Source of the DNA: Amycolatopsis antarctica
Lineage (GTDB): Bacteria > Actinomycetota > Actinomycetes > Mycobacteriales > Pseudonocardiaceae
NCBI RefSeq assembly: GCF_002262875.1
Contig: NZ_NKYE01000012.1
Span: 62,001 to 126,000, forward strand
Direction of reading: 5' to 3'
DNA length: 64,000 nucleotides
A program made the translations under genes and the position numbers. Shown here piece after piece: positions 41,028-64,000 of this stretch (positions are counted from its first letter, which is position 1; each line of letters begins with the position of its first letter). The notes below the pieces were generated by a model that was not told the DNA's origin, ran no database searches, and worked only from the letters and a program-made list of their open reading frames with translations.

Positions 41028-42002
41028 TCAGCCCGGCGCGCCGCTCCACCAGCGGCGGGCCACCTCCGGGTGCGACCGCAGCCAGCCCGCCAGCGCGTGC
41101 TCGCCGTAGCGCGTGCTCCCCGGACCGCCCTGGCCGTCGAGCGGCTCGACGATCGCGTCCAGGCGCGGCGCCATGAACAGCGCGACCGAGAGCCGGTCGG
41201 CATCCGGGCGCACGACCCCGTGGCTGGTCGCCACGATCCGGCCACCGGCGGCGAGTTCCAGCATCTCCCCGATGTTCACCACGAAACTGCCCGCTCTCGG
41301 CGGCACGTCGATCCACTCGCCGTCCGGGCCGCGGACCTGCAGTCCACCGACCTCGTGCTGCTGCAGCAGCGTCAGGTAGCCGTAGTCCTTGTGTTCGCCG
41401 ACCCCCTGCGACCCGGCTCCCCGCGATCCGGCACCGTCCTTGGCCGCCGGATAGTGCAGGATCTTCATGTGTGTCGCGGCTTCCTCGTCGAACCAGGTCC
41501 CGAAGTAGGTCTCCTCGCGACCCAGCATCACCGCCAGCGCACCGAGAAGTTCCCGGCCCGCGCGCACGACCTCGTGCTGCCAGTCGAGTGCGGCGGCCCG
41601 CAGTTCCGGTAGCGCGTCCGGCCACTGGTTCGGCCCCCGCAGGCCCCACCACGACGGATCGCCCGGCCGCGGAACCACGGCCGGACGTTCCGGGCCGATG
41701 TCCAACTGCTCACGCCGGTCTCGCACACCGCCGGTGAACTCGTTGCCATCGCGGGTGTATCCCCGGAAATGCGGGGAGTGGACGTTCTCGATCGCCAGCC
41801 GCTGTTCCAGCGGCAGGCGGAAGAACTCGGCGGCGAGGTCGGCGATCCGGCGCGTCACCCGCTCCGGAACGCCGTGCCCCCGCAGATAGAAGAAGCCGAC
41901 CCCGCCCGCGGCGGCGCGCAGCTCGCGGACGAAGGCGGCACGTTCGGCGCCTCCCGCCCGGAACCGCCCGAGATCGAGCACCGGAAGCGATCGTGTGCTC
42001 AT
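41028..42002 (-). CDS. 2-oxoglutarate/Fe(II)-dependent oxygenase (isopenicillin N synthase-like family)
   Basis: 324 aa. DIOX_N domain (about 6-120; GVGFFYLRGHGVPERV, FFRLPLEQRLAIEN, RGYTRDGNEF) and 2OG-FeII_Oxy domain (about 160-290). The iron ligands are the HxD of GEHKDYGYLTLL and the distal His of ATSHGVVRPDADRLSVALFM, whose Arg-x-Ser binds 2-oxoglutarate. Its ATG overlaps the stop of the flavin monooxygenase gene (ATGA), so it is the last gene of a three-gene operon. Hydroxylation or desulfonation of a small organosulfur molecule is plausible; the substrate is unknown. Confidence 0.85.
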   Translation of the reverse strand: MSTRSLPVLDLGRFRAGGAERAAFVRELRAAAGGVGFFYLRGHGVPERVTRRIADLAAEFFRLPLEQRLAIENVHSPHFRGYTRDGNEFTGGVRDRREQLDIGPERPAVVPRPGDPSWWGLRGPNQWPDALPELRAAALDWQHEVVRAGRELLGALAVMLGREETYFGTWFDEEAATHMKILHYPAAKDGAGSRGAGSQGVGEHKDYGYLTLLQQHEVGGLQVRGPDGEWIDVPPRAGSFVVNIGEMLELAAGGRIVATSHGVVRPDADRLSVALFMAPRLDAIVEPLDGQGGPGSTRYGEHALAGWLRSHPEVARRWWSGAPG

Positions 42003-44571: not shown

Positions 44572-44675
44572 CGAATCGCCTCCGCGTGAGTGAGCAGCAG
44601 GTTCACCCCGTGCAGCGGAGACCGGCGGGCACGCATTCCGGCATCCAGATACTGGGACGGCACGCGGCCGTGCGG

Positions 44676-44717
44676 CGGTTCCGGCCCGCACACCGTGTCG
44701 GATGCGGGCCGGAACCG
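44676..44717 (-). terminator. Hairpin terminator after the molybdenum hydroxylase operon
   Basis: A perfect 15-bp stem (44676-44690 with 44703-44717) and 12-nt loop begins one base beyond the large-subunit stop on the minus strand. It separates that operon from the monooxygenase operon downstream. Confidence 0.65.
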
Positions 44718-44718
44718 T

Positions 44719-46800
44719 TCAGCGCAGCACCTTGTCCAGCGTGATCGGCAACTCCCGCACCCGGACTCCGGTGGCGTGATGCACCGCGTTGGACACCGCC
44801 GCGGCGGTGCCGACGATGCCGATCTCCCCGATGCCCTTCGAGCCGACCGCGTTGACGTGCGGATCGTGCTCGTCGAGCCAGGTGATGTCCATCCGGCCCA
44901 CGTCGGCGTTGGCGGTGATGTGGTAATCGGCCAGGTCGTGGTTGACGACGTGGCCGAACCGCGGGTCCATGACCGACGACTCGTGCAGCGCCATCGACAG
45001 CCCCATCGTCATGCCGCCGAGGAACTGCGACCGCGCCAGCCGCGGGTTGACGATCTTCCCGGCGGCGAAGACGCCGAGCATCCGCGGCACCCGGATCTCG
45101 CCGGTGTCGGCGTTCACTCGCGCCTCGACGAACTGCGCGCCGAACGCGTACATCGCGTAGGTCTCGGCGGCCGGGTTGGCCTGGACCGAGGCCTCGATCT
45201 CGTCGCCGTCGTCCGGGTCGGCACCGAACTTCGCGCGAAACTCCCGCGCGGCCTCGACCACCGCCGAGCCCCACGTCGTCATGCCCGACGACCCGCCGGC
45301 GACCGAGGCGACGGGATACCTCGTGTCCCCTATCCGCACCTCGACATCGGCGATGTCCGTGCCGAGCGCGTCGGCGGCGATCTGCGCGAGCGTGGTCCAG
45401 GTACCGGTGCCCAGGTCCGCCGACCCGATCTCGGCGACGTAGCGGCCGCTCTCGAACCGGACCGTCGCGGTCGATTCCGGCATCCGGTACACCGGGTAGA
45501 CCGAGGACGCGACACCGGATCCCACCAGCCACCGCCCCTCCTGCCGGGAACGCGGCGCCGGGTCGCGGTCCGCCCAGCCGAAGCGTTCCGCCCCCTCGCG
45601 CAGGCAGGCCACGAGGTTGCGGCTGGAGAAAGGTTTCCCCGAATCCGGGTCGCTCGCCGGGTCGTTGATCACGCGCAGCTCGATCGGGTCGATTCCGAGC
45701 TGCTGGGCGAGTTCGTCGAGTGCGACCTCGGTGCCGAACATGCCCGGCGCCTCCCCCGGCGCCCGCATCCACGAGGGCACGGCGACGTCCAACGCCGCCA
45801 GCCGGTGGGACGTGCGACGGTTCGGCGCGGCGTACATGGAGCGCGTCGACACCGCGGTCTGCTCGGCGAACTCCTTGATCTTGGCGGTCTGCTCGACGAC
45901 GTCGTGCGCGATCCCGGTCAACGTCCCGTCCCGGTTCGCGGCCAGTGCGACGTGCTGGATGGTAGGCGTGCGGTAGCCCGCGACGTCGAACATCTGCTGG
46001 CGGGTCAGCGCCAGGCGTACCGCCCGGCCGGGCACCGCGCGGGCCGCCATCGCCGCCAGTACGGTGCCGGCCTTGGGCGCGCCCTTGGAACCGAATCCTC
46101 CGCCCAGGTAAGGGCAGATGACGTGCACGGTCTCCGGCTCCATGCCCAGCACCGCCGCCACGGTGCGGCGCACCGGGTGCACGCCCTGCGTGGAGTCCCA
46201 CAGCGTCAGCGACCCGTCCGCGGACAGGGCGGTGGTGGTGTGCGGTTCGAGCGGATTCTGGTGGTACATCGCCGTGGTGTAGGTCTGCCGGATCGTGTAC
46301 TCGGCCTCGGCGAGCGCCTTCTCCACGTCGCCGTCGTCCGAGTCCGTGGGGAACGCCGGATTGACGACCTCGGGCTTGTACAGATCGTCCCGCCGGTCGG
46401 AGAGGACCACATCGTGCGGCGCCTGGTCGTAGGTGACGGCCACCAGTTCGGCGCCATGACGGGCGATCTCGCTGCTCTCGGCCACGACCGCGCCGATGAT
46501 CTGCCCGCGGAACGCCACCTCGTGGTCCTGCAACAGGGCCAGTTCGGCGTCCTCGGTGTCCGCGAGCCGTTCCGCGTTACCTGGGTTCAGCACCGCGAGC
46601 ACCCCGTCGAGGGCGAGCGCGGCGGCGTCGTCGAATCCGGTGATCCGCCCGCGCGACACCGTGGCCTGCACCGGGTGGCAGAACGCCGGGTTCTCCACCG
46701 GGTGCTCGTAGGCGTAGGGGGCGGTGCCGGTGACCTTCTTGACGCCGTCGCGGCGGGCCAGGCCCTGCCCGACGGCCGCGTGGTCGAGTGTCTCGCTCAT
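44719..46800 (-). CDS. Molybdenum hydroxylase large subunit (xanthine dehydrogenase family, PaoC-like)
   Basis: 693 aa from the ATG at 46800, which overlaps the FAD-subunit stop (ATGA). Ald_Xan_dh_C domain (about 20-130) then the Mo-pterin domain. PYLGGGFGSKGAPK and RAPGEAPGMFGTEVALDELA are cofactor-contact motifs, and SKGIGEIGIVG near the C-terminus carries the catalytic glutamate. Subunit order 2Fe-2S, FAD, Mo matches PaoABC periplasmic aldehyde oxidoreductase. Substrate: probably aldehydes. An XdhC/PaoD chaperone is not seen in the window; the CobS/CobT-like pair is distant. Confidence 0.88.
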   Translation of the reverse strand: MSETLDHAAVGQGLARRDGVKKVTGTAPYAYEHPVENPAFCHPVQATVSRGRITGFDDAAALALDGVLAVLNPGNAERLADTEDAELALLQDHEVAFRGQIIGAVVAESSEIARHGAELVAVTYDQAPHDVVLSDRRDDLYKPEVVNPAFPTDSDDGDVEKALAEAEYTIRQTYTTAMYHQNPLEPHTTTALSADGSLTLWDSTQGVHPVRRTVAAVLGMEPETVHVICPYLGGGFGSKGAPKAGTVLAAMAARAVPGRAVRLALTRQQMFDVAGYRTPTIQHVALAANRDGTLTGIAHDVVEQTAKIKEFAEQTAVSTRSMYAAPNRRTSHRLAALDVAVPSWMRAPGEAPGMFGTEVALDELAQQLGIDPIELRVINDPASDPDSGKPFSSRNLVACLREGAERFGWADRDPAPRSRQEGRWLVGSGVASSVYPVYRMPESTATVRFESGRYVAEIGSADLGTGTWTTLAQIAADALGTDIADVEVRIGDTRYPVASVAGGSSGMTTWGSAVVEAAREFRAKFGADPDDGDEIEASVQANPAAETYAMYAFGAQFVEARVNADTGEIRVPRMLGVFAAGKIVNPRLARSQFLGGMTMGLSMALHESSVMDPRFGHVVNHDLADYHITANADVGRMDITWLDEHDPHVNAVGSKGIGEIGIVGTAAAVSNAVHHATGVRVRELPITLDKVLR

Positions 46801-47816
46801 GCTGCTTCCTCTCCGGCCAGGTCGCGCAGCATGGCGGTGACAGTGGCCGCGGCGAGCGGGATCTTGAACGCGTTGCCGCCGTCGAGGCCGTCGAGGCCCC
46901 GGGCGGCGGTGAGTTCGGCGTCGATGGCCGCCCGGAAGTTCGGGACGCTCGGTGCGGCGCCGCGCAGCCGCTCTTCGGCACGGGAGGCCCGCCACGGCTT
47001 GTGCGCCACACCGCCGAGCGCGATCCGCACGTCGCGGACGGCACCGTCGGCTATGTCGAGCACAGCACCCACGCTGATCAGCGCGAACGCGTACGAGGCC
47101 CGGTCGCGGACCTTGCGGTAGGCCGAGCGGCCGGTGAGTGCGGGCAGGTCGATGCCGGTGATCAGCTCGCCGTGTTCCAGCACGGTGTCGCGCTCGGGCT
47201 CGTCCCCGGGCAGCCGGTGCAGCTCGGCCAGCGGGATCGTGCGCTCACCGCCAGGGCCCAGCACGCGGACCCGCGCGTCGAGCACCGCCATCCCCACCGC
47301 CATGTCCGAGGGGTGGGTGGCGACGCAGTGCTCGGAGGCGCCCAGGATCGCGTGGTTACGCGTCCAGCCAGGACCCTCCTGCCCGGCCACGGCGAGCGCG
47401 GAACAGCCGGTTCCGGGCTCGCGCTTGTTGCAGGGCGTCGACACGTTCTGGAAGTAGCTGCACCGGGTGCGCTGCAGGAGATTGCCGCCGGTGGTCGCCA
47501 TGTTGCGCAACTGACCGGAGGCACCGGCCAGCAGCGCCTGCGACAGCACCGGGAAGCCGGTGCGGACGCGCTGGTCGGCGGCGAGCTCGGAGTTGCGCAC
47601 GGCGGCGCCGATGCTCACCCCTCCCCCGTCGAGGCCGATGATCTCGGCCGAGGTCAGCGAGGTGACGTCGACCAGGAGATCGGGCGAGACGAGGCCCAGC
47701 TTGAGGTGGTCGACGAGGTTGGTGCCCCCGCCGAGGAACATCGCGTTCGGATCGTCGGCGACGGATCGCACGGCGTCCGCGGCGTCGTCCGGTGCCCGGT
47801 AGGCGAAGGGTTTCAT
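46797..47816 (-). CDS. Molybdenum hydroxylase FAD subunit with extra Fe-S cluster (PaoB-like)
   Basis: 339 aa. FAD_binding_5 domain (about 1-220; FLGGGTNLVDHLKLG, GNLLQRTRC) and CO_deh_flav_C. The insertion TRCSYFQNVSTPCNKREPGTGC carries three clustered Cys residues as in PaoB, where a 4Fe-4S cluster is bound; ordinary xanthine dehydrogenase FAD subunits lack it. ATGA overlaps with both neighbours support a stoichiometric complex. Confidence 0.87.
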   Translation of the reverse strand: MKPFAYRAPDDAADAVRSVADDPNAMFLGGGTNLVDHLKLGLVSPDLLVDVTSLTSAEIIGLDGGGVSIGAAVRNSELAADQRVRTGFPVLSQALLAGASGQLRNMATTGGNLLQRTRCSYFQNVSTPCNKREPGTGCSALAVAGQEGPGWTRNHAILGASEHCVATHPSDMAVGMAVLDARVRVLGPGGERTIPLAELHRLPGDEPERDTVLEHGELITGIDLPALTGRSAYRKVRDRASYAFALISVGAVLDIADGAVRDVRIALGGVAHKPWRASRAEERLRGAAPSVPNFRAAIDAELTAARGLDGLDGGNAFKIPLAAATVTAMLRDLAGEEAA

Positions 47817-48313
47817 CGGCCGGCCTCCTGGATCGCCGGGACGATGTGCGCGTAGGCGCCGCAGCGGCACAGGTTGCCGCTCATCCGCTCGGCCACCTCG
47901 TCGTGGGTGAGCCCGGCGGCCTCTCCCGGAGCGGTGACGGCCGAGGGCCAGCCGCGCTCGTGTTCGTCGAGCATTCCGACGGCGGAGCAGATCTGGCCCG
48001 GCGTGCAGTACCCGCACTGGAAGGCGTCGTTGTCGATGAACGACTGCTGGACGGGATGCAGTTCCCCCTCCGCACCCAGCCCCTCGGCGGTGGTGACCTC
48101 GGCGCCTTCCTGGGTCACGGCGAGCGTGAGGCAGGACAGGGTGCGGCGGCCGTCGACCAGGACCGTGCAGGCACCGCACTGGCCGTGGTCACAGCCCTTC
48201 TTGGCGCTGTTGTTCCCGATCCGCTCGCGCAGCGCGTCGAGCAGAGTGGTGCGGTTGTCGATCGTGAGGTGGTGGGATCGTCCGTCGACGCGGACCGTCA
48301 GTGTCGTCTCCAT
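47813..48313 (-). CDS. Molybdenum hydroxylase 2Fe-2S subunit (PaoA-like)
   Basis: 166 aa. A plant-type ferredoxin domain (CDHGQCGACTVLVDG) and a CO-dehydrogenase-type helical domain (CGYCTPGQIC, MSGNLCRCGAY) supply Cys ligands for two 2Fe-2S clusters. It starts the operon with METTLTVRVDG and has no Tat signal. Unlike E. coli PaoA, the enzyme is therefore probably cytoplasmic, unless a more distal start is used. Confidence 0.92.
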   Translation of the reverse strand: METTLTVRVDGRSHHLTIDNRTTLLDALRERIGNNSAKKGCDHGQCGACTVLVDGRRTLSCLTLAVTQEGAEVTTAEGLGAEGELHPVQQSFIDNDAFQCGYCTPGQICSAVGMLDEHERGWPSAVTAPGEAAGLTHDEVAERMSGNLCRCGAYAHIVPAIQEAGR

Positions 48314-52130: not shown

Positions 52131-52616
52131 TCACAGCCTGCGGTGCATGATGTGCAGGCCGACGTACCCGTCTGCCGGATGCAGGAAGCCCTCCGGGAGG
52201 GTGCCGATGATCTCGAAACCCAGGGACTCCCACAGAGCGACGGCCCGGGTGTTGTTCTCCACCACCGCGTTGAACTGCATCGCGCGGTACCCCTCCGCCG
52301 CGGCCCAGCGCAGCGCGTGCTCACCCAGCGCACGGCCGACGCCGTGCCCCGCGTAGGCGGGGTCGACCAGGAAGCTTGCGGTCGCGATGTGCGCCCCTGG
52401 CCCGGCGTGGTTGGGGCCCATCTTCGCGGTGCCGGTGATCGCGCCGTCCTCGGCCACGGCCACGACGGCCCGGTTCGGTGGTCCCGTCAGCCACATCGCC
52501 CTGGCGCGCTCCTCGGTGACGTCGGTGTCCCAGGTGTAGGTCTCCCCCGCCGCCATGATCGGTCGCAGGAACCCCCAGATGGCTGGCCAGTCGTCCTCGG
52601 TCGCAGTCCTGATCAC
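52131..52616 (-). CDS. GNAT-family N-acetyltransferase
   Basis: 161 aa, GTG start. MIRTATEDDWPAIWGFLRPIMAAGETY, the acetyl-CoA loop VDPAYAGHGVGRALGEHALRWA (about 90-108), NAVVENNTRAVALWESLGF. It is close to the phosphinothricin/L-amino-acid acetyltransferase-like group, but the substrate is not predictable. Separate from the lipid operon, whose terminators lie between them. Confidence 0.87.
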   Translation of the reverse strand: MIRTATEDDWPAIWGFLRPIMAAGETYTWDTDVTEERARAMWLTGPPNRAVVAVAEDGAITGTAKMGPNHAGPGAHIATASFLVDPAYAGHGVGRALGEHALRWAAAEGYRAMQFNAVVENNTRAVALWESLGFEIIGTLPEGFLHPADGYVGLHIMHRRL

Positions 52617-52727
52617 CGGTCACCTCGCATGCGCGTCCTCCGTGCGGTCACGGCCAGTCTCCGGATACCGGCGCCACGGGGCAAGCAGGTTCCACCGGGC
52701 CCACACTGGGCGGGCAACGGCCGGGTA

Positions 52728-52813
52728 GCCGCCGTACGCCGGGCGGGCGCGGGGCGGGGGCGCGCCGCACCCCGGCGTACGGCGGCGCCGAGACCGGGCT
52801 TCGGGGGAAGCCC
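52728..52813 (-). terminator. Double hairpin ending the PKS/glycosyltransferase operon
   Basis: On the minus strand, GGGCTTC...GAAGCCC (52796-52813) begins one base beyond the exporter stop. A second perfect 16-bp stem (52728-52743 with 52771-52786) follows. Neither has a U tract. Confidence 0.6.
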
Positions 52814-52814
52814 G

Positions 52815-55022
52815 CTACTCGGCGGCCAGGAGCTGTGTCGCGGCGAGCTCACGGTAGAGCTCGTCGTCGTCGACCAGGGTCCCGTGCGTACCCACCGCAC
52901 GGACCCTGCCGTGTTCGAGCACGACGATCTGGTCCGCCTCGATCACCGTGGAGAGCCGGTGTGCGATGAGGATGACCGTGCAGTAGCGAGCGGTCCGGGC
53001 GACCACCTCGCTCAGCGCCTGCTCGTTGCGCGCGTCGAGCTGGGCCGTCGCCTCGTCCAGCAACAGCACCCGGGGCTTGCGCAACAATGCCCGCGCGATG
53101 GCCAGCCGCTGCCGCTCCCCACCGGACAGCGTCACCCCGCGCGCCCCGACCGGCGTGTCCAGGCCCTTCTCCAGGCGGGTCAGCAGGCTGTCCAGCCGGG
53201 TGACCCGCAGGACCTCGACGATGTCGCGTTCGGACGCCTCCGGCGCCGAGTAGAGCAGGTTGTCCCGGATCGTCCCGGCCATCGCGGGCGCGTCCTGTTC
53301 GACGTAGGCGATCCGGCGGCGCACCTCCGCCCTCGGCATGGTCGCGATGTCCTGCCCGCCGATCCGGATGACGCCGGACGAGGGGTCGTAGAACCTTTGC
53401 AGCAACGAGAAGAGCGTCGTCTTGCCGGCTCCGGACAGGCCGACCAGCGCGGTCTGCGTCCCACCCGGGATGCGGAACGACATGCCGCTCAGGGCCGGGG
53501 CCCTGCCGGGGTAGGAGAACTCGACCCGGTCGAGTTCGATGGCGGGTGCCGGGCCGCCAACGGCGCCGGGGACGGCGACCTCGATGTCCTCCTCGATCGG
53601 CATCTGCGACACCTCGTCGATGCGGCCGACCGCGCCGAGACCCTGCTGCAGCATGCTCGCGCCGGTGACCAGCGAGGCGATCGGGCTCGCCAGGAAGAAG
53701 ACGTACAACAGGAACGCGATCAGCGCGGCCACCGGCATCGAGCCGTTGGCGACGAACACGCCGCCGACACCGAGCACCACCAGGAACGCGGTCTGGATGG
53801 ACGCGCCGCCGACCATGCTGACGATGGCGCCGTAGCGGGCACCGACGAGTCCCGCGCCGTACGCGTCCTCCACCGCGCCCTGGGCCAGATCGGTCTCGCG
53901 GCCCTCGGCGCCGTTGGCCTTGACGGTGCGCGTCGCCCCGAGGGTCCGGTCGAGCATGGCACCGACGACGCCGACGGACTCCTGCGCCCGTGCCACGGCG
54001 AGCTTGATCCGCGGCAGCACGATGGTCATCACCACGGCGACCAGGACGAGAACGATCATCGTCACGCCGAGCAGTCCCCAGTGCAGGGTGCCCATCATGA
54101 CGATCGCGCCGATGAAGGTCAGCACCCCGTTGACGCACATGATCAGGCCCTCGGTGGCGGCGCTCTTGAGCAGCGTGCTGTCCGAGGTGACACGGGCGAT
54201 CAGGTCACCTGGTGCGCGGCGATCCAGTTCGGGCACGCGCAACCGGATCAGCCGGAACACGAGGTCGCGGCGCACCTGCCGGACGACCCGTTCCGAGGTG
54301 CGCTGTTGCAGCCAGGCGTTGAACCCGGTCAGCAGGGCGCCGGCGACGAGCAGCACCGACAGCACCAGGATCGGCTGGCCCACACTCTGACCGGTGCCGA
54401 GCCTGCCGAGGATCTCCTGCGCGAACTTGGGCTGGACCAGACCGGAGGCGCTGGCCAGCAGGGTGATCACCAGGGACATGGCGAGCACGCGCTTGTGCGG
54501 CCTGGCGTAGGCGATCAGTGCCGCCAGGGAACCCTTCTGCTCGGCGGGCTGCGGGTCCGGTTCGGCCGCTGGTGGCTTCCCCTCGGTTTCCTTCCGTGGC
54601 CGCCGTGCCGGCGCGGACTGCTGTCGCGTCCGCTCCGGGCGGTCCTCGGGAACCCGCCGCGGCGGCGCGGCCCGCGGCACGGCCTGCGATGGCCGTTGCG
54701 GACGGCGCTCCGGGTGTCGCTCCGCAGGCCGCCGAGGTGGCTGCCGCGGCGGTGACTGACGGGGTGCCGACGGTGGTTCCCGCTGCGGCCACTCCGGAGG
54801 CGGCCTGCGTGGCGGACCGGGTTGTGGTGGCTGCTGATGGCCGGGCCACTGCGGGGGTGGCCCCGGCGGGCGGCCCTGCGGTCGCGGTCCCGGCGGGGCT
54901 CCCGGTGGTGGCGGTCCGGGTGCCTGCGGTCCCGGTCGCGTCCCGGGTGGCGGACCCTGGCGGTACGGCGGGGGGTGAGGTGCGCGCCCGGGCCCGGGGC
55001 CGGGCGCCTGGTGCGTCGTCAT
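52815..55022 (-). CDS. ABC exporter (fused membrane and ATPase domains) with proline-rich N-terminal extension
   Basis: 735 aa. The first about 165 residues are almost only Pro, Gly, Arg and Gln (for example PPPEWPQREPPSAPR) and probably disordered. A type I ABC exporter follows: six helices (about 175-450) and an ATPase with Walker A GLSGAGKTT, signature LSGGERQR, Walker B VLLLDEAT and IAHRLST. MsbA-like half-transporters of this kind move lipids or glycolipids. It is the last gene of the PKS operon and overlaps the glycosyltransferase by 4 nt, so it is the likely exporter of the glycosylated product. Confidence 0.88.
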   Translation of the reverse strand: MTTHQAPGPGPGRAPHPPPYRQGPPPGTRPGPQAPGPPPPGAPPGPRPQGRPPGPPPQWPGHQQPPQPGPPRRPPPEWPQREPPSAPRQSPPRQPPRRPAERHPERRPQRPSQAVPRAAPPRRVPEDRPERTRQQSAPARRPRKETEGKPPAAEPDPQPAEQKGSLAALIAYARPHKRVLAMSLVITLLASASGLVQPKFAQEILGRLGTGQSVGQPILVLSVLLVAGALLTGFNAWLQQRTSERVVRQVRRDLVFRLIRLRVPELDRRAPGDLIARVTSDSTLLKSAATEGLIMCVNGVLTFIGAIVMMGTLHWGLLGVTMIVLVLVAVVMTIVLPRIKLAVARAQESVGVVGAMLDRTLGATRTVKANGAEGRETDLAQGAVEDAYGAGLVGARYGAIVSMVGGASIQTAFLVVLGVGGVFVANGSMPVAALIAFLLYVFFLASPIASLVTGASMLQQGLGAVGRIDEVSQMPIEEDIEVAVPGAVGGPAPAIELDRVEFSYPGRAPALSGMSFRIPGGTQTALVGLSGAGKTTLFSLLQRFYDPSSGVIRIGGQDIATMPRAEVRRRIAYVEQDAPAMAGTIRDNLLYSAPEASERDIVEVLRVTRLDSLLTRLEKGLDTPVGARGVTLSGGERQRLAIARALLRKPRVLLLDEATAQLDARNEQALSEVVARTARYCTVILIAHRLSTVIEADQIVVLEHGRVRAVGTHGTLVDDDELYRELAATQLLAAE

Positions 55023-56206
55023 CCGCGTGCCGCCCCGGCGTCGGCGGGCTGCCGTTCCAGCAGGCCTTCGAGATGACCGGCGGCCGCGGTGCCGCCGCCC
55101 GCGGCGCGGAACGACTCACCGATCCGGCAGGCGGCCTCCCGGTGGCCGCCGGCCGGGTCGAGCACGGCGTCGATCGCCGCGGCGATCCGCGCGGGGCCGG
55201 ATCGGCCGAACCGCAGCCGCACACCGGCACCCGCGTCCACGACCTGCCCGGCGACGATGGGCTGGTCGTCGCGGATCGGCGCCACGACGAGCGGAACGCC
55301 GTGCCAGAGGGATTCGCAGACGGTGTTGTGGCCCGAGTGGCAGACGACCGCGTCGAGACGTTCGAGCAGCAGGAGTTGCGGTGCGTGAGCACGGACGAGG
55401 ACGTTGTCGCCGACCTCGCCCAGCACTCCGGCGGGATCGAGGATCACGGCGCGCACTCGTCCGTCCATCGTGGACAGCGCTTCGGCCGCGGCGTTGAGAA
55501 AGGCCGCGCCGGCGTCGAGGTTGGTGGTGCCGAGCGTGACGAGCACGGTCGGCAGCGGGGAGTCCAGCCACTCCCACGGGAAGTCCGATGTGGACGGACG
55601 ATCGGTGATGGAGGGGCCGACCAGCCAGGTCCGCTCACCCAGTTCCACCTGGCCGAGCAGTTCCCGGGTGGTGAAGCCGAGCACACCGTGCGGCGACATG
55701 CGCGGGTCGGCGGTGCCCGCGCCGTCCGCGATCCGGCCGCGCAGGTCCTCGATCAGCCCGTCCAGCCAGGCGGCGACCTTGGGCAGCCCGTCCAGCGGAT
55801 CGATCAGCTCGGCGGGGGTGGTGGCCGAGGTCACCCAGGTCAGGCCCAGGGATTCGGCGATCAGCCCGCCCGCGACCGCCTGCTGGTCCGCGACCACGAC
55901 GTCCGGTGCGAACGTCTCGATGGCCGAACGGACGCCGGGGGCCATGGCGTCGGCGAGCGGGATCAGGAACTCCTCCCAGAGGAACTGCAGGGCAGCCGGC
56001 CCCTTGAGGTCCGCCGTGCGGGCTAGTCCACCCTCCGGGACGACGCAGTCGAAGACTTTCGCGTCCGCGCCCGCGAGGTGGCGCACGAGTTCCTCGTGCC
56101 CGGCCCAGGCGACCTCGTGTCCGCGCGCCGCCAGCGCCCCGGCCGTGCCCACGGCGGGGTTGACGTGGCCGACGAGCGGCGGCACGACGAACAGGAAGCG
56201 ACCCAC
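55019..56206 (-). CDS. GT1-family glycosyltransferase (macrolide/UGT type)
   Basis: 395 aa from the GTG at 56206, 2 nt after the hydrolase stop, with GGAG upstream. GT-B fold: an N-terminal acceptor domain (FLFVVPPLVGHVNPAVGTAGALAARGHEV) and a C-terminal donor domain with the nucleotide-sugar motif HAPQLLLLERLDAVVCHSGHNTVCESLWHGVPLV. Such enzymes glycosylate polyketides, sterols or lipids with NDP-sugars. The sugar is unknown, and no sugar-modifying genes are seen, so a common donor such as UDP-glucose is likely. Confidence 0.85.
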   Translation of the reverse strand: MGRFLFVVPPLVGHVNPAVGTAGALAARGHEVAWAGHEELVRHLAGADAKVFDCVVPEGGLARTADLKGPAALQFLWEEFLIPLADAMAPGVRSAIETFAPDVVVADQQAVAGGLIAESLGLTWVTSATTPAELIDPLDGLPKVAAWLDGLIEDLRGRIADGAGTADPRMSPHGVLGFTTRELLGQVELGERTWLVGPSITDRPSTSDFPWEWLDSPLPTVLVTLGTTNLDAGAAFLNAAAEALSTMDGRVRAVILDPAGVLGEVGDNVLVRAHAPQLLLLERLDAVVCHSGHNTVCESLWHGVPLVVAPIRDDQPIVAGQVVDAGAGVRLRFGRSGPARIAAAIDAVLDPAGGHREAACRIGESFRAAGGGTAAAGHLEGLLERQPADAGAARG

Positions 56207-56208
56207 CC

Positions 56209-57021
56209 CTACTCCGCCTCCACCAGTGCGTCGGAGGTGTCCCGGACCCACTGCCGGATCAGCCGCGAGGTGTCCTCGGTGCGTTCCACCAGCACGGAGT
56301 GCCCCTGTTCCGGCAACACCACGGTGCGGCAGCGGGCCAGCTTCGACTCCAGTTCGTCGACCTGTCCCGCGAGTCCCGACTCGTCGCCGAAGAGCGCGAA
56401 CACCGGGCAGTGGACCTCGTGCAGGTCGTCCTCGATGGTCCGGCTGAGCGGGATGTCCTCGGCGATCGTGGTGGCCTGCATGATCTTCAGCGCCGATTTG
56501 GACAGCCGCGCGGTGTGCGCGCCGAAGTTGTCCGAGATCCAGTCGATGGCCTCGGCAAGGGCGAGCTGGGTCTTGGCGTCGTGCAGACCGTCGGCCATGT
56601 GACCGATCCAGGCGCGGACGGGCGGCTCGGCCTCGATCGCGGTGACGCTGGCGACGCGGTCCGGGCGCTCGGCGGCCAGGCCGTACGCGATCGACCCGCC
56701 GAAGGAGTTGCCGACCAGGTGCACGGGGCGGTTCACGTCCAGTGCGCTCAGCAGCGCGTCCAGGTCGGCGACGAAGTTCTCCAGCCGGTAACCGGTGGCC
56801 GGTTTGCTCGTACGGCCGTGCCCGCGCAGGTCGTACATGATCACGTCCATGCCGTGCTGCGCGAACTCCGGCCCGAGCGTGAAGTAGTAGCTGGCGAGAC
56901 TGTCGGTGAGCAGGCCGTGGATGAACACCACGACGGGGGCTTCCTCACCGTCACGCGGTGGGACCACCGGGGTGAGCCGCTGGACGTGCACATCCAGTTC
57001 GCCGGCACGGATCTTCGCCAT
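56209..57021 (-). CDS. Alpha/beta hydrolase
   Basis: 270 aa. Oxyanion HG motif (VVVFIHGLLTDSLASYYF), nucleophile elbow VGNSFGGS near 100, and a terminal LPEQGHSVLVERT with the catalytic His; the acid is probably the Asp in FGDESG. It starts 3 nt after the ACP. In this context it may release or hydrolyse the acyl chain from ACP (thioesterase-like) or transfer it, since no thioesterase domain is seen in the PKS. Confidence 0.85.
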   Translation of the reverse strand: MAKIRAGELDVHVQRLTPVVPPRDGEEAPVVVFIHGLLTDSLASYYFTLGPEFAQHGMDVIMYDLRGHGRTSKPATGYRLENFVADLDALLSALDVNRPVHLVGNSFGGSIAYGLAAERPDRVASVTAIEAEPPVRAWIGHMADGLHDAKTQLALAEAIDWISDNFGAHTARLSKSALKIMQATTIAEDIPLSRTIEDDLHEVHCPVFALFGDESGLAGQVDELESKLARCRTVVLPEQGHSVLVERTEDTSRLIRQWVRDTSDALVEAE

Positions 57022-57024
57022 CTG

Positions 57025-57339
57025 TCAGTTCTCCTCGGCTGCGCGCAGGGACGTCACGACATGACGGACGAGCTCGCCGACGGTGAGCGCGATGATCTCG
57101 TCCAGTTCGCGTTCGGCGATGAACGCCGCGAAATTGACCTTCTCGCCGTACAGCTCACGGAGCTGTCCGGACAGTCCGACGAGGTCGATGCTCTCGAGTT
57201 CGAGATCGTCGTGGAACGTGGTGTCCATAGTGATCTCGGCGTCGTCGAGCCCGTACTCCTCGAGCACCACCTGCAGCATCGCGGTGATCTCGGCAAGGAC
57301 CACGGTCTCGTCGGCGACCGCTGTCGTCTCGGTGTTCAT
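57025..57339 (-). CDS. Discrete acyl carrier protein
   Basis: 104 aa. PP-binding domain with the phosphopantetheine serine in HDDLELESIDLVGLSGQL, near 51. The ATG follows the PKS stop directly (TAA-ATG), with GGGAG upstream. It may accept the finished chain, load a starter, or serve the glycosyltransferase/hydrolase steps, separate from the tandem ACPs in the upstream PKS gene. Confidence 0.88.
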   Translation of the reverse strand: MNTETTAVADETVVLAEITAMLQVVLEEYGLDDAEITMDTTFHDDLELESIDLVGLSGQLRELYGEKVNFAAFIAERELDEIIALTVGELVRHVVTSLRAAEEN

Positions 57340-60300
57340 TTATCGCTCCCTTGACTGTTCGGAGTCCGTCCACGCAACGACGTACTGCTTCGCGGGCCCG
57401 CCCGGCTGGTTCGCCACGGTCCGGCACCGCACCGGGTACTCCCGGCCGTCGACGCGCACGATCGACGTCTCCCGGTCGGCTTCGACGACCTCGAACTTCC
57501 TCGGCTCGCCCTGCAATCCGGTGCCCAGCAACTTCGACACGGCCTCCTTGGCGGTCCAGAACCGGGCGAACCACAGTTGTTCCGGCTCACCCTCGGCGGC
57601 ACGGGCGGTCAGCAACTCCCGTTCGCCCTCGCCCAGCGCGGCCGCGACGGTCGTCTCCGGCCGCGGCACGACCTCCTCGACGTCGATGCCGCACGGACCG
57701 TCCCGCACGATCGACACACCGACCTCGCCGCTGTGCGCGATCGACACGGTCAGCTCCGGCACCGTCCGGCCGTAGGCGCCGCTGACGTAGGGCCTGCCCG
57801 CGGGATCGTTGCCCACCCGCAGTTCGGCGGGAAAGATCCCGCCCTCCCCCTCGTCCCAGAGGTGCTGACGGACGGCGTCCTTCGCGGCGATCCGGCCGAG
57901 CAGCCACTGCCGCTTTCCCCGCGGCGGGTGCGCCGTGTACTGCTCGCGTTCGGCACCGGCCAGGAGGTTGCGCATGATCAGGTCCCTGGTGGCGAGGTCG
58001 GGCCACTGCTCGTGCACCAGCGCCCAGCCGTCCGGGTCCATCGTGGACAGGGTGTTGTGCTCCGGGAACCGGTCCATCGCCCGGATCGTGGGGTTGCTGT
58101 CGAAACGGCGGTCACGCCAGCCGCGGAAGTCGGCCCACACCCGTCCATTGTGGACGAGCTGCATGTCGGCCTCGAGCGTCGAGTCGGTGACGCCGGTGAT
58201 CCGCACCAGGCATTCGAGCTTCTCGCCGGGGGCGGGATGGTCGCCGTAGAAGCGGATCCGTTCCATCCCGACCGGGAACACCGTGGTCCGCGAGGTCAGC
58301 TCCGACATGATCCAGTAACCGAGCACCTGGCCCACGTTGTCCAGCAGGGCACCGGGTGCGGCCGGGGTGGTGATCTCGCCGCGGACGTGCGCGTCACCGA
58401 TCGCGATCAGCTCGGTGACCCCCTGGAACCGGGGGCCGTGGAACATCCAGCGCTCGGTGTAGAGGGCCTCGGCGGACAGCGACGGAACCCGTTCCGTCGC
58501 CGGGTCGAAAGTCCACGGCGCGGGCGGGTCGGTGGCGGCCGAGCCCGCGAGTTCGAGTTCGGCCCGCGAGTACCCGCCGAGCGAGGCGGCGACGCGGCCG
58601 GGCCCGCGCGGAGCGATGTGCACCTCCACGTCGACCGGCGGGGTGGCGGTGACCCACTGGTTGAACCGCAGGTCGTGCACGGCCACCACCCGGCTGCCCG
58701 GCGCGGCCTGCTCGGCGAAGTCGATCAGGTGGCCGATCACCGTCGTGGCCGGCACCACCGGCCAGGAGTCGGCGGGCTCCGCGTCCGGCGGCTGCTTGAA
58801 GAAGCAGTGGTCGAGCAGGTAGGGCATCTCGTCGACGGAAACGTGCAGCGTGGCGTGCAACTCGCCGGTGCCCTGCGGCGACTGCGGCTGCGGCACCGGC
58901 TGGGGCGCCGGGGGCAGCGGCGGGGCGGGGCGTGGCGGACGGGCGGGCGGGCGGGAGCCGCTCGCGCTGATCACGTCTGCGGTGAGCGCGGCCGTGTCCT
59001 TCAGGAACGCGGAGAACTCGGCCGCCAGCGGGTACCGCTCACCGAGGGTGTCCAATGTGGACGCCTCGGTGGTGCCCGCCGGGGCGGTCGCCCTGACCGG
59101 CGCGGGACGCATCCCGGCTCCGATCCGGTCGCGGGTCTCCCGGTCCAGCGACACCAGCGCGCCGCCGAGGTCGAGCCGCACCGGAGCCCGCGGTACCCGG
59201 CGCGCGGGTGCGCGGCGCGGCGCGGCGCCGAGCAGCGGGGTGAGGTCCGGTTCCGCGCCGTGCGCCCATAGCCCGGTGGCGAGGCGGTGGAGCTGCGCGA
59301 GCCCGGACCGGTTGGCCGAGTGCGCGGACACCACCAGGTGCTCCCGTCCGTGCAGGGTGTCCGAGACGAGCGAACCGAGCTGGCCCGCGCCGAGCTGGAC
59401 GAACGCGCGGAAGCCCGCATCGTGCATCGCCTCGATGGTCGGACGGAACCGCACCGGCTCCAGCAGGTGCCGGACGAACAGCGCACGCACCGCATTCGGG
59501 TCGGACGGGTAGTGCGAGCTGGTGGTGGCCGACCACACGGGCAGCGTCGCCGGGTTGATGGAATAGCGCTCGGCCGCCTCCCGGATCGGGTCCAGGTACG
59601 GCCGCAGCATCGGTGTGTGGAAGCCGGAGCGGAACGGCAGCACCTGGGCGATCACGGCCTCGGCGCGGAACCGGGCGACCAGTTCCCCGACGGCCGCGGC
59701 GGGGCCGCAGACCATCGACTGGTTCGGTGCGTTGTCGTGCGAAAGCACGACCTCGTCCTGGCTGTCGAGCGCCTCGGCCACGCGGTCCGCGCCGGCACCG
59801 ATGACGGCGAAGGCCAGCCCCGGCACCTGCAGCGAGTCCGGATCGAACCCGGCGAGGAAGGCGTCCACCTCGCGCTCGTCGTGGATACCGCCCGCGGCCA
59901 TGGCCGTCCACTCGCCGAGGCTGTGCCCGGCCAGCGCGTCCGGGACGATGCCCATCCGGCGCAGGGCGGTGTCGAGCAGCCTGCCGAGTTCGAAGACGCC
60001 GGTGCCCTGCCTGCCGACGTCGCCGACGGTCGTGTCGGCTCCGGCAAGCGACCAGCGGAGCCCGAACCGGGCGGCGATGTCCTCCGCGTTCGGCTCGAAC
60101 TCCGACTCCAGACCGGGGAATACGAACGCGAGCTTGCCGATTCCCTTGCCCAGCAAGGGTTCCGGCGAGAACCACACGTCGTTACGGCCGCGCCAGCCGG
60201 TGCCCTTGGCCACGGCCCGGCGGGCCAGGGCCAGCCGCTTGGCCGTCGGGTCGACGATGCCGATCCGGCTGGGGCCCGCGGCCGGGTCGCGTTCGTCGAG

Positions 60301-61821
60301 CCCGGCGGCGAGAACCGCCTCGTCCTCGGCGTCGAGCAGGGCGGCGAGATCCGCCGGTGACGCGGCGGCCAGTCGCAGCACCCGCTCCGGTTCGGCGACC
60401 CGCACGACCGGTGCGGCGACGTCCTGTTCGAGCACGACGTGCGCGTTGATCCCGCCGAAACCGAAGGCGTTGACGGCGGCGCGGCGGACCGGCTGCTGCT
60501 CGGAGGTCGCCCATGGGCGGGCGGTGTCGACGGTGGCGAAGCGGGTGCGCGCCAGCGCGGGATGCGGGTCGTCGCAGTGCAGGGTGGGCGGCAGCACGCC
60601 GTGGTGCACGGCAAGGGCGGCCTTGACCAGTCCGGCGACCCCGGCCGCGGGCATGGTGTGCCCGATCATGGACTTCACCGAGCCGATCACAGCCCTCGGC
60701 GCCTCGCCCGCGGGCCCGAAGACCTCGGCGAGGGTCTCCAGTTCGGCCGAGTCGCCCGCGGGAGTGGCGGTGCCGTGGGCTTCCAGCAGACCGATGGAAC
60801 GATCTTCGGCGGGGTCGAGTCCGGCCGCCTCCCAGGCCTGCCGGACCGCACGGACCTGGCCGCCGCTGTCCGGATTGAACAGGCTGGAGGTCTTGCCGTC
60901 GCTGGCGACCCCGGTGCCGGTGATGACGGCGTAGACACGGTCACCGTCCCGCCGGGCGTCGTCGAGACGCTTGAGCACGACCACCCCGGTACCCTCGCCG
61001 ATCAGCACACCGTCGGCGTCGCGGTGGAACGGCCGGATGCGTTCGCTGGTGGAGAGCGCACCGAGCTGGTTGAACACGCTCCAGAACGTGATGTCGTGAC
61101 AGTGGTGGACGCCGCCGGCGAGCACGGTGTCGCAGCGGCCGCTCTCCAGTTCCCTTGCGGCGTGGTCGACCGCGATCAACGAGGACGCGCAGGCCGCGTC
61201 GACGGTGTACGCGGGACCCCGCAGGTCGAGCCGGTTCGCCAGCCGGGAGGCGGCGAGGTTGGGCACCAGGCCGATCGCCGACTCGGGCGATTCCGGGCCG
61301 AGCTGGTCGGTGAACGCCGCGCGGACCTCCTCCAGCCGCTCGGCGCCGAGTTCGGGCATCAGCTCGCCGAGGGTGCGCACCAGCTGGCTGGCGGTCCGCA
61401 CCCGCTGGTCGAGCCGCACCAGTCCGGGCGTCAGGTAGCCACCCCGGCCGAGTACGACGCCGACCCGCTGGCGGTCGGCGGGCAGCCGGTCCGCGCCGCC
61501 CGCGTCGGCGATCGCCTGGGCGGCCACCCGCATCGCGATGAGCTGGTCCGGTTCGGTGCCGGGCACGGAATTGGGCATCACGCCGAACTCCGTCACGTCC
61601 ACGTCCGCGAAGTCGTCCACGAAACCGCCGCGCTTGCAGTACACCCGGTCGGCCCGGCGCTGCTCGTCCGGCGCGTAGAAGTCACCGTCCCAGCGGCCGG
61701 CCGGGACGTCGGTGATGGCGTCGACGCCCTCGACGAGGTTCCGCCAGTAGGCGTCGAGGTCCGGCGCACCGGGGAACAGTACGGACATTCCCACGATGGC
61801 GATCGGACAGGACTTCGACAT
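57340..61821 (-). CDS. Iterative polyketide/fatty-acid synthase: KS-AT-linker-DH-phosphopantetheinyl transferase
   Basis: 1493 aa. KS (about 5-460): active Cys 211 in VDAACASS, EAHGTATPAGDS, and KSMIGHTMPAAG. AT (about 545-870): GHSLGEW near 630. A Pro-rich linker (about 960-985) leads to a double-hotdog dehydratase with His in LLDHCFF (about 1002) and Asp in LLDNVGQ (about 1160). The C-terminus is a Sfp-type phosphopantetheinyl transferase with GIDVEEV (about 1377) and WTAKEAVSK (about 1422). No ACP, KR or ER within this protein. The set resembles PUFA and heterocyst-glycolipid synthases. It starts 9 nt after the upstream PKS gene. Confidence 0.88.
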   Translation of the reverse strand: MSKSCPIAIVGMSVLFPGAPDLDAYWRNLVEGVDAITDVPAGRWDGDFYAPDEQRRADRVYCKRGGFVDDFADVDVTEFGVMPNSVPGTEPDQLIAMRVAAQAIADAGGADRLPADRQRVGVVLGRGGYLTPGLVRLDQRVRTASQLVRTLGELMPELGAERLEEVRAAFTDQLGPESPESAIGLVPNLAASRLANRLDLRGPAYTVDAACASSLIAVDHAARELESGRCDTVLAGGVHHCHDITFWSVFNQLGALSTSERIRPFHRDADGVLIGEGTGVVVLKRLDDARRDGDRVYAVITGTGVASDGKTSSLFNPDSGGQVRAVRQAWEAAGLDPAEDRSIGLLEAHGTATPAGDSAELETLAEVFGPAGEAPRAVIGSVKSMIGHTMPAAGVAGLVKAALAVHHGVLPPTLHCDDPHPALARTRFATVDTARPWATSEQQPVRRAAVNAFGFGGINAHVVLEQDVAAPVVRVAEPERVLRLAAASPADLAALLDAEDEAVLAAGLDERDPAAGPSRIGIVDPTAKRLALARRAVAKGTGWRGRNDVWFSPEPLLGKGIGKLAFVFPGLESEFEPNAEDIAARFGLRWSLAGADTTVGDVGRQGTGVFELGRLLDTALRRMGIVPDALAGHSLGEWTAMAAGGIHDEREVDAFLAGFDPDSLQVPGLAFAVIGAGADRVAEALDSQDEVVLSHDNAPNQSMVCGPAAAVGELVARFRAEAVIAQVLPFRSGFHTPMLRPYLDPIREAAERYSINPATLPVWSATTSSHYPSDPNAVRALFVRHLLEPVRFRPTIEAMHDAGFRAFVQLGAGQLGSLVSDTLHGREHLVVSAHSANRSGLAQLHRLATGLWAHGAEPDLTPLLGAAPRRAPARRVPRAPVRLDLGGALVSLDRETRDRIGAGMRPAPVRATAPAGTTEASTLDTLGERYPLAAEFSAFLKDTAALTADVISASGSRPPARPPRPAPPLPPAPQPVPQPQSPQGTGELHATLHVSVDEMPYLLDHCFFKQPPDAEPADSWPVVPATTVIGHLIDFAEQAAPGSRVVAVHDLRFNQWVTATPPVDVEVHIAPRGPGRVAASLGGYSRAELELAGSAATDPPAPWTFDPATERVPSLSAEALYTERWMFHGPRFQGVTELIAIGDAHVRGEITTPAAPGALLDNVGQVLGYWIMSELTSRTTVFPVGMERIRFYGDHPAPGEKLECLVRITGVTDSTLEADMQLVHNGRVWADFRGWRDRRFDSNPTIRAMDRFPEHNTLSTMDPDGWALVHEQWPDLATRDLIMRNLLAGAEREQYTAHPPRGKRQWLLGRIAAKDAVRQHLWDEGEGGIFPAELRVGNDPAGRPYVSGAYGRTVPELTVSIAHSGEVGVSIVRDGPCGIDVEEVVPRPETTVAAALGEGERELLTARAAEGEPEQLWFARFWTAKEAVSKLLGTGLQGEPRKFEVVEADRETSIVRVDGREYPVRCRTVANQPGGPAKQYVVAWTDSEQSRER

Positions 61822-61830
61822 GGGCAGCGA

Positions 61831-64000
61831 TCACCAGCCCGATGCCGTGTAGACGACGGAGGTGGTGTCCTCGGAGCCCCAGGCCAGCTCCCGGAGCAGG
61901 CTCATGGTGCCCTCTTCCGGGTCGATGAGCTGGATCCCGCGCTTGGCGTAGTTGCGCATCAGCTCGGGGGTGACCATGCCGTTGTTGGTCCCGGTCGGCG
62001 CCCACGGTCCCCAGTGGACGGTCAGCCCGCGCATTCCGTCCACTTCGGACCAGCGGCGGCCGAGGGTCTCCAGTGCGTCGTTCGCCGCGGCGTAGTCGGA
62101 CTGCCCCCGATTGCCGAGGGTGGCGGCGATACTGCCGAACAGCACCGCGAACCGGGGCCCGCCGGGCAGTTCACCGACCGCGTCGAGCAGCGCCTGTGCC
62201 CCGTCGACCTTGGTGCTGAACACCCGGTTGAACGACTCCGGCGACTTCTCCGCCACCAGCTTGTCCTCGATGACGCCCGCCGCGTAGACGATGCCGTCGA
62301 TCCGGCCGTGTTCGGCGTGGATCTCCTTCACCGCACCGTGCACGGCTTCCGCGTTGAGCATGTCCAGCGAGTGGTACCGCACCTCGCTGCCGAGTTCGGT
62401 CAGCCGCCGGATGGTGTCGCGGACCTCGCGCTCGGCCTGAATGCGCCCGACCGCCCGCTCGATCTCGGCGGGTGAGCGGAGTCCGGTGGCGATCAGCGCG
62501 GACCGCAGCTCGGCTGCCGTACCCGCGGCGGCGACGGCGGGATCCTGCTCGTCGGTGGACAACGCCGTCCGGCCGAACAGTTCCAGCCGGCAGCGACTCG
62601 CCGCGGCGAGCGTGGTGGCGAACCGGGCGGTGATGCCCTTGGCTCCGCCGACCAGGACGACGACGGAGTCGCGGACCAGGCCCATCGCCTCGGCCTCCGC
62701 GGCACCCTCGCCCGCGGGTCCGGCTCCGGTGCTGCCGAGCAACCCGAGGCCCTGTTCCTCCATCCGCAGTCCGCGGCGTCCCCCGCCGGAGCGGAGTACG
62801 ACCGGTTCCCGGTCCACTCCGGACAGTTCGGCGACGAGTCCCTCGGCGATGCCGTCCGCGTCCGCGCCGGGCTCCTGCTCGACGACCCTGGCGATGGTGT
62901 CCGGGTACTCCCGCGACACGGAGCGGAAGAAGCCGCGCAGGCCGTCCGCCGGGCCCGCGGCGATCAGCCATCGCGGGTCGGTGCCCAGCAGTGCCTTGTA
63001 CGTGGGGAAGGTGTCCGGCAGCACCGGGTCCTCCGGCGAGCGGTTCTCCGCGGAGGCCAGGTGGATCACGCCGTCGAACGGCCCGTCCGGGGCCTGCGCG
63101 GCGACCGTCACCGTGGCCCCGAGTCCGGCCAGGCGGTCACGGGTGGCCTCGGCGAGGGGACCCGCACCGAGCACCAGGAAGGCCTTGCCCGCCACGGCAT
63201 CGGCGTTCACCGTCGCGCCCGCGAGTTCGAACTCGGTCATCACCAGGCGCTTCGGCGCCACGATGATCGGCGATCCGTCCACCTCGGACTCCACCGGCGC
63301 CGCGGGGGGTGCGGGTTCGTCCTGAGCACCGCCACCGCCGAGGAGGCCGGCGAGTTCGGCCGCGGTGCGCGCCTTCGACAACTCCTCCACATCACCGTCC
63401 GCGGCCGTCAACCCCAGCCGCGAAGCCAACTCACCCGCGATCTCCGCACGCTTGATCGAATCCACACTCAGATCCGCTTCCAGATCCAGGTCCGGCTCGA
63501 TCATGTCCACCGGATACCCGGTTCGCTCACCGATCACCTCCAGCACCACCGTCAGCACCGAAACGCCGTCGGCCGGAGCGGGCGCAGCGGCCGGGACGGG
63601 CCCGGGAGCCGTGGCGCCGGGGGCGGGAGCGTTGCCGAGGAGGCCGGAGAGCTCGGCTGCGGTGCGCGCCTTCGACAACTCCTCCACATCACCGTCCGCG
63701 GCCGTCAACCCCAGCCGCGAAGCCAACTCACCCGCGATCTCCGCACGCTTGATCGAATCCACACTCAGATCCGCTTCCAGATCCAGGTCCGGCTCGATCA
63801 TGTCCACCGGATACCCGGTCCGCTCACCGATCACCTCCAGCACCACCGTCAGCACCGAAACGCCGTCGGCCGGAGCGGGCGCAGCGGCCGGGACGGGCCC
63901 GGCGGGGGCGACCGCTGCCTGCGCGGCGGGAGTGGCGGGCCGTGGGGCCGCGACCTGTCGCACCGCCGGCTGCGAGGCGTAACCGAGGGGTTCGGGCGCG
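61831..64000 (-). CDS. Iterative PKS/PUFA-like synthase, C-terminal part: ACP-ACP-KR (continues past the window edge)
   Basis: The frame is open through base 64000, so the N-terminus (presumably KS-AT) is missing; the GTG at 63963 is internal. Two ACPs each bear LSVDSIKRAEI, close to the PUFA-synthase consensus, separated by Ala/Pro linkers. A long KR region follows: a structural part from about 63280, then VVLVGGAKGITARFATTLA and the catalytic Ser/Tyr in LFGSIAATLGNRGQSDYAAAND. It supplies carrier and ketoreduction functions to the KS-AT-DH protein downstream. Confidence 0.87.
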   Translation of the reverse strand, partial: APEPLGYASQPAVRQVAAPRPATPAAQAAVAPAGPVPAAAPAPADGVSVLTVVLEVIGERTGYPVDMIEPDLDLEADLSVDSIKRAEIAGELASRLGLTAADGDVEELSKARTAAELSGLLGNAPAPGATAPGPVPAAAPAPADGVSVLTVVLEVIGERTGYPVDMIEPDLDLEADLSVDSIKRAEIAGELASRLGLTAADGDVEELSKARTAAELAGLLGGGGAQDEPAPPAAPVESEVDGSPIIVAPKRLVMTEFELAGATVNADAVAGKAFLVLGAGPLAEATRDRLAGLGATVTVAAQAPDGPFDGVIHLASAENRSPEDPVLPDTFPTYKALLGTDPRWLIAAGPADGLRGFFRSVSREYPDTIARVVEQEPGADADGIAEGLVAELSGVDREPVVLRSGGGRRGLRMEEQGLGLLGSTGAGPAGEGAAEAEAMGLVRDSVVVLVGGAKGITARFATTLAAASRCRLELFGRTALSTDEQDPAVAAAGTAAELRSALIATGLRSPAEIERAVGRIQAEREVRDTIRRLTELGSEVRYHSLDMLNAEAVHGAVKEIHAEHGRIDGIVYAAGVIEDKLVAEKSPESFNRVFSTKVDGAQALLDAVGELPGGPRFAVLFGSIAATLGNRGQSDYAAANDALETLGRRWSEVDGMRGLTVHWGPWAPTGTNNGMVTPELMRNYAKRGIQLIDPEEGTMSLLRELAWGSEDTTSVVYTASGW
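63337..63605. repeat. Near-identical ACP repeat, unit 2 (C-terminal ACP)
   Basis: 269 bp repeated at 63634-63902, offset exactly 297 bp (99 codons). By eye only four bases differ across the unit, including synonymous positions. Recent duplication or gene conversion is implied. Confidence 0.85.
63634..63902. repeat. Near-identical ACP repeat, unit 1 (N-terminal ACP)
   Basis: Partner of 63337-63605. The match starts in the linker before each ACP and ends in the Ala/Pro linker after it. Further copies may lie beyond the window edge. Confidence 0.85.

Follow-up and report, generated by a model that had tools for sequence, protein, structure and literature searches.

A PUFA-synthase-like actinobacterial operon with its own PPTase, glycosyltransferase and exporter as a probable glycolipid pathway

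An operon in which a PUFA-synthase-like enzyme pair is packed together with a hydrolase, a glycosyltransferase and an exporter raises the question of whether a lipid chain is built, glycosylated and exported by a single set of genes. The locus lies at one end of the 64,000-nucleotide stretch of DNA analysed here (the window), which corresponds to C6:62001-126000, part of contig C6 of a 6.34-Mb genome. A sequence-only reading had described seven tightly packed genes, with an upstream KS-AT gene presumed to lie beyond the window edge. All of the described genes were found where they had been placed, on the minus strand. Extending the sequence past the edge showed that the open reading frame ending at 61831 runs on to C6:130919 and carries an intact upstream KS-AT. 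The KS-AT is thus located outside the window as presumed, but not as a separate gene, because it shares one ORF with the ACP-ACP-KR part that had been counted on its own. The operon consists of six genes rather than seven, named A to F here, complete and on the minus strand. Their tight packing was borne out, with gaps of 9 nt between A and B, 0 nt between B and C, 3 nt between C and D and about 2 nt between D and E, followed by a 4-nt overlap of E and F, indicating that the genes form one transcription unit. The catalytic motifs were located as well (KS Cys and both His; AT Ser and His; DH His and Asp; PPTase D..E and WxxKE; ACP Ser; Walker A and signature of the ABC protein), in agreement with the earlier view that the KS, AT, DH and PPTase residues are intact.

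The operon is flanked upstream by a divergent ORF without Pfam hits and downstream by a GNAT gene. Scanning 52500-52900, behind F, for promoters and terminators found nothing, and tRNA and Rfam scans of the whole window gave no matches. Elsewhere in the window, two luciferase-type monooxygenase-like genes and a three-gene set of the xanthine-dehydrogenase type were recognised by eye on the minus strand (41999-48313).

Gene A encodes a protein of 2,362 aa with the order (extra barrel)-ER-KS-AT-ACP-ACP-KR. Its start is at L005:4919 (C6:130919), 4.9 kb outside the window; the 5' part occupies the adjoining L005:1-4919 (contig C6 up to 130919), while the ACP-ACP-KR end is encoded by 61831-64000 on the minus strand, with the KR domain (PF08659, aa 2086-2307) at 61999-62664. 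The first ACP repeat unit, 99 aa in length (63604-63900), and the second (63307-63603) are identical at 276/297 bases, and the pair (63307-63900) appears from its sequence to be the product of a recent duplication or gene conversion. With a strict motif, a single ACP was counted in 43 of 69 long homologues, two in 24 and three in 2. The predicted model of residues 1-650 (pLDDT 88.4) contains two barrels. The second of them (about 279-644) superimposes on FabK with a Z of 35.2 over 314 residues (rmsd 2.2) and on PfaD with a Z of 30.4 and 14% identity, and its EGxECGGH motif is invariant in 20/20 aligned homologues, the His of xEAGGH being the proposed catalytic residue (PMC13311796). Given that the fold and the His are present but FabK is nearer than PfaD, the model suggests that this ER belongs to the FabK/PfaD superfamily without being a true PfaD. 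By contrast, the catalytic His is replaced by Arg in the first barrel (in the N-terminus at L005:2970-4919), as it is in the majority consensus of the 20 aligned homologues, and this conserved region matches Pfam NMO weakly; we infer from the replacement that the first barrel is probably no reductase.

Gene B (57340-61821, minus strand) encodes KS-AT-DH-PPTase in 1,493 aa, with the DH at approximately 58087-58854 and the PPTase (PF01648 and motifs) at approximately 57367-58014. The last 505 residues were modelled with a pLDDT of 88.0. The DH region forms a double hotdog of the PKS type, matching Pfam PF14765 (PS-DH) with an E of 4e-11, and its model is nearest to PKS dehydratases, with MlnB at a Z of 25.5, a MAS-like DH as the top Foldseek match and the curacin DHs also near. 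Searching B with Pfam profiles revealed a single KS and a single DH, with neither a FabA-like DH nor a second KS/CLF. The presence of a PKS-type DH together with an ER argues for a chain that is saturated or hydroxylated rather than cis-polyunsaturated.

These features bear on the possibility that the operon is a canonical PUFA synthase for EPA/DHA-like membrane lipids, with the glycosyltransferase and ABC genes as incidental neighbours. A KS-AT-ACP2-KR arrangement like that of PfaA, accompanied by a PPTase, would be expected of such a synthase. However, whole protein A scored 930.1 bits against TIGR02813 (omega_3_PfaA), short of the cut-off of 1010.1, the only DH of B is of the PKS type and no CLF accompanies it, and we rejected a free-PUFA product on these grounds; the hydrolase and glycosyltransferase moreover accompany B in 101/102 and 16/16 loci of the two sets described below, and we regard a canonical PUFA synthase as very improbable. 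The PUFA-likeness claimed for the operon therefore holds insofar as PfaA is the best NCBIfam model for both A and B, but not in the sense of a score above the cut-off, a FabA-type DH or a CLF.

Enediyne PKSs also end in DH-PPTase, as single KS-AT-ACP-KR-DH-PPTase proteins, and the operon might then represent an enediyne-type iterative PKS split into two genes. The same genome does possess a gene on contig C4 (L137:11511-17958) that we take to be enediyne-type PKS-like, although NCBIfam gave it no such name; near it are what we presume to be small thioesterase-like, flavin-reductase-like and topoisomerase-like genes and an SGNH hydrolase. B aligned to this PKS with 32% identity over KS-AT only, with no significant match in DH-PPTase, which led us to reject the enediyne reading. 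The division of functions over two proteins and the absence of enediyne partner genes recognisable by eye beside the operon also speak against such a split PKS, to which we assign only the slightest probability.

Conservation of the motifs was examined in 88 loci, a set that leaves out L023-L036 (14 same-genus loci that are likely repeats, L023 being the same place as L043). The DH His and Asp are kept in 88/88 loci, and W, K and E of the PPTase WxxKE in 84/88; for the PPTase D..E, D is kept in 85/88 and E in 83/88, the second acid being altered in five. The KS and AT residues were counted in 80-82/88, lower mostly because loci end at contig ends. All four loci without WxxKE (L039, L040, L041 and L042 of the 88) are paralogous cassettes with a decayed PPTase in B, three of them having lost the D of D..E as well while the DH residues are kept, and the ACPs there must be charged by another PPTase. 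In addition, no KS domain match was found in B of L042, L140 and L143, and from these sequences the KS of B seems dispensable.

Genes C, D and E follow B on the minus strand. Gene C (57025-57339) is a stand-alone ACP of 104 aa (PF00550) whose Ser is kept in 88/88 loci. Gene D (56209-57021) encodes an alpha/beta hydrolase of 270 aa (PF00561/PF12697) with the Ser in 86/88 loci (Cys in two) and the His in 88/88. No conserved acid was seen at the position usual for the triad; judging from its sequence, D may act by hydrolysis, transfer or cyclisation. Gene E (55019-56206) encodes a GT1 glycosyltransferase (MGT/EryCIII-like), 395 aa in length when read from the GTG at 56206. This GTG, behind GGAGG and 2 nt past the stop of D, is most likely the start, rather than 56251. 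Relatives of E include macrolide glycosyltransferases and the UDP-glucosyltransferase YjiC, its best NCBIfam models being macrolide glycosyltransferases with a score below the MGT cut-off, whereas its two best PDB hits carry the name 'glycosyltransferase' alone. UDP-glucose is used by the macrolide-type relatives and by YjiC. No NDP-deoxysugar genes were recognised by eye among the ORFs around the operon, and combined with the naming of relatives like YjiC as UDP-glucosyltransferases, this suggests that the donor of E is probably glucose.

Gene F (52815-55022, minus strand) encodes an MsbA-like ABC exporter of 735 aa (PF00664 and PF00005), with MsbA_rel as its best NCBIfam model at a score under the cut-off. 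Its Pro-rich N-terminal extension (the first ~160 aa) is 37% proline and has no sequence common to the homologues, whose starts are not fixed. An F homologue of over 55% identity occurs together with E in 19/88 loci, and one at 41-53% directly follows E in L152 and L153. Cassettes that include the exporter occur, for instance, in A. xylanica (L043) and S. olivochromogenes (L046). F was not found with E in 69/88 loci, some of which end at contig ends, and export by F is thus not universal.

The kinship of E and the presence of F allow two further explanations. E and F could be self-resistance genes against another antibiotic, unrelated to the synthase, as E weakly matches macrolide-inactivating glycosyltransferases and F belongs to a general exporter family. 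However, D and E come after B and C in 101/102 loci and in all 16 further loci, and gaps of 0-9 nt with a 4-nt overlap place them in one transcription unit, making such a function highly improbable. Alternatively, the product could be an antibiotic-like glycoside, that is, a glycosylated polyene or shorter polyketide and not a lipid, with DH acting in most rounds and ER rarely. Such a product would suit a DH nearest to the MAS-like, MlnB and curacin DHs, a glycosyltransferase whose best NCBIfam models, under their cut-off, are macrolide glycosyltransferases, and the exporter. By contrast, PfaA is the model that whole protein A matches best (930 bits), the ACPs are in tandem, the ER is of the FabK type with EGxECGGH invariant in 20/20, and there is no tailoring oxygenase within the operon. 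We consider a polyketide glycoside unlikely, and a glycolipid the preferred reading of the operon.

All 102 fetched loci contain B, C and D, and all except L037 also contain E (101). A was detected in 95; the seven loci without it are short or cut stretches. B-C-D-E share one strand and one order in 101/102 loci, or 87/88 without the 14 likely repeats. Among 16 further loci chosen from the class-wide matches, representing six families with 34-79% identity, the A-E domains were colinear in 16/16, bearing in mind that L143 ends inside A at a contig end and that no B KS match was found in L140 and L143. The recurring A-E colinearity makes the hydrolase and glycosyltransferase look like core parts of the cassette. 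Taken together, the earlier description of a PUFA-synthase-like glycolipid or glyco-polyketide operon with its own PPTase, glycosyltransferase and exporter fits the tested features, namely PfaA as the best model for A and B, the PPTase motifs, the GT1 and MsbA-like proteins and the wide linkage to hydrolase and glycosyltransferase.

Outside the core, additions differ with lineage. In many Streptomyces loci, the gene after E encodes a methyltransferase. Mapping the labels 'ABC', 'MT' and 'no' onto a tree of D and E (85 rows; rows shorter than 550 residues were excluded) showed that exporter and methyltransferase cluster, with 12 changes compared with a shuffled mean of 37.2, and mark mostly different clades, the labels being approximate since loci cut by a contig end were scored 'no' and an antisense ORF cluster underlies some of the MT calls. 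Within an Amycolatopsis clade that lacks F, a gene recognised by eye as an MFS-type transporter lies downstream (gene cluster 3, with 11/13 of its members on the same strand), a position that could be explained by shared synteny of close relatives. Beside the exporter, a convergent and apparently secreted GDSL/SGNH hydrolase was observed in 15/19 exporter loci (L062, L066-L069, L072, L074, L076, L078, L087, L091, L095, L102, L118 and L120), its placement hinting that the exported compound is processed outside the cell. Neither gene was retained as part of the present operon: the GDSL/SGNH hydrolase is not beside it, with the nearest homologue (68%) on another contig, and the homologue of the Streptomyces-type methyltransferase (54%) is also on another contig.

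The distribution across actinobacteria was estimated from matches to the last 486 residues of B (DH-PPTase), many of the weaker ones ending before the end of the PPTase. Matches were present in 32/60 genomes of the search among relatives, and in 120/297 genomes of the family sample and 54/394 of the class sample, the genome's own match being counted each time. The best 80 of 463 related stretches (E <= 1e-3) come from Streptomyces, Amycolatopsis, Kribbella, Kitasatospora, Actinophytocola and others, and the operon's genes are carried by two Streptomyces linear plasmids too. A genus of the same order (g20) matched in 1/98 genomes. One actinobacterial family contributed 32 of the 54 class matches, with B matched in 32/35 of its genomes and nifH in 25/35 by a model that also scored above its cut-off in 3/14 control genomes. 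From this nifH content the family is most likely Frankiaceae, and the A-E block was found in five of its loci (L146, L149 and L151-L153). An exclusive tie to nitrogen fixation was not supported, however, because 7/8 genomes of genus g90 within this family match B without nifH, and the nifH-bearing G075 has no B match.

We propose that the operon is probably a complete secondary (specialised) glycolipid pathway in which a chain is built, glycosylated and exported. A and B would carry out iterative chain building with KR-DH-ER reduction, on ACPs charged by B's own PPTase, toward a long acyl chain that may be partly or fully reduced and is probably hydroxylated. C, the separate ACP, would then receive the chain, which D would either release or transfer. 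Its hydroxyl would be glycosylated by E, probably from UDP-glucose, and the resulting glycolipid would be exported by F. How substrates flow, how long and how saturated the chain is, which sugar is attached and whether the product is exported are inferred in this scheme from gene content, motifs, the predicted ER and DH folds and A-E conservation, all of which were observed. We therefore view the operon as a real and intact member of a widespread, chemically uncharacterised class, and firmly predict from its genes that this class makes glycolipids. Searching the full-text literature found no characterised product or cluster for this gene order, and an unseen report may exist. That the trio of ACP, hydrolase and glycosyltransferase is fixed across several actinobacterial families predicts a glycoside product and tells chemists which mass difference to seek. 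A lipid of nitrogen-fixing actinobacteria may also become testable by one deletion.

How this scheme relates to known systems was then considered. The heterocyst glycolipid (hgl) pathway also uses a glycosyltransferase and an ABC exporter, and its chain release is reductive, via a thioester reductase domain. Pfam detected no such domain in A or B, so chain release here probably yields an acid or ester, unlike the hgl alcohol. As described for the cyanobacterial hgl synthases (PMC13291983), a PUFA-like iterative synthase would likewise serve a glycolipid here, and the antiSMASH hglE-KS class probably covers this operon.

The macrodilactones glucolypsin, cycloviracin and fattiviracin contain long-chain hydroxy fatty acids with glucose and come from Streptomyces, Nocardia and Kibdelosporangium (PMC4365757). 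The non-cyclic sugars of cycloviracin are O-methylated according to the same article, which also tabulates a Frankia glycolipid of undetermined structure; the O-methyl sugars may be compared with the methyltransferase after E in many Streptomyces loci. No gene cluster for these three compounds was found in our literature search or in the portion of PMC4365757 consulted. We hypothesise a link between the cassette and these macrodilactones, drawn by analogy. Extended further, A-E would be the route by which actinobacteria in general make 3-O-glycosyl long-chain hydroxy fatty acids. In Streptomyces and Pseudonocardiaceae, two of these acids would be linked by D into macrodilactones of the glucolypsin/cycloviracin/fattiviracin type, and A-E would also make the Frankia glycolipid. 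This extension is a speculative one that we hold to be rather doubtful; if true, it would provide a biosynthetic basis for a class of glycolipids for which our search found none.

The Nocardia 'pfaA' cluster #11, predicted to be PUFA-like, is described as KS/AT/ACP/ACP/KR (PMC4035055) and, compared by this description, shares both its domain order and its two ACPs with A. By contrast, the word 'PPTase' is absent from the text of that article, and no mention of an ER fusion, a glycosyltransferase or an exporter was found in the portion consulted.

A counterpart is found in the 2011 work of Shulse and Allen (PMC3098273), in which PUFA-like secondary lipid synthases are listed under twenty types. 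Their Type M, from Frankia, Actinosynnema, Renibacterium and S. avermitilis, was listed with an uncharacterised product. Its occurrence in Frankia agrees with our assignment of the nifH-rich family to Frankiaceae. The fused pfaD-A architecture of Type M (ER and KS-AT-ACPn-KR) is that of gene A in one ORF, and its pfaBC protein with PPTase corresponds to gene B (KS-AT-DH-PPTase, with D..E and WxxKE). Judged by architecture, the operon matches this uncharacterised class. Fused pfaDA and pfaBC with PPTase are likewise reported in a 2026 paper to closely resemble the Renibacterium cluster, which is still called uncharacterised there (PMC13291983). The word 'glycosyltransferase' is absent from the text of PMC3098273, indicating that the C-D-E trio and the exporter are not described in it. 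The core A-E itself is widespread; what the present analysis adds to the Type M synthase architecture is its link to a conserved trio of ACP, hydrolase and glycosyltransferase.
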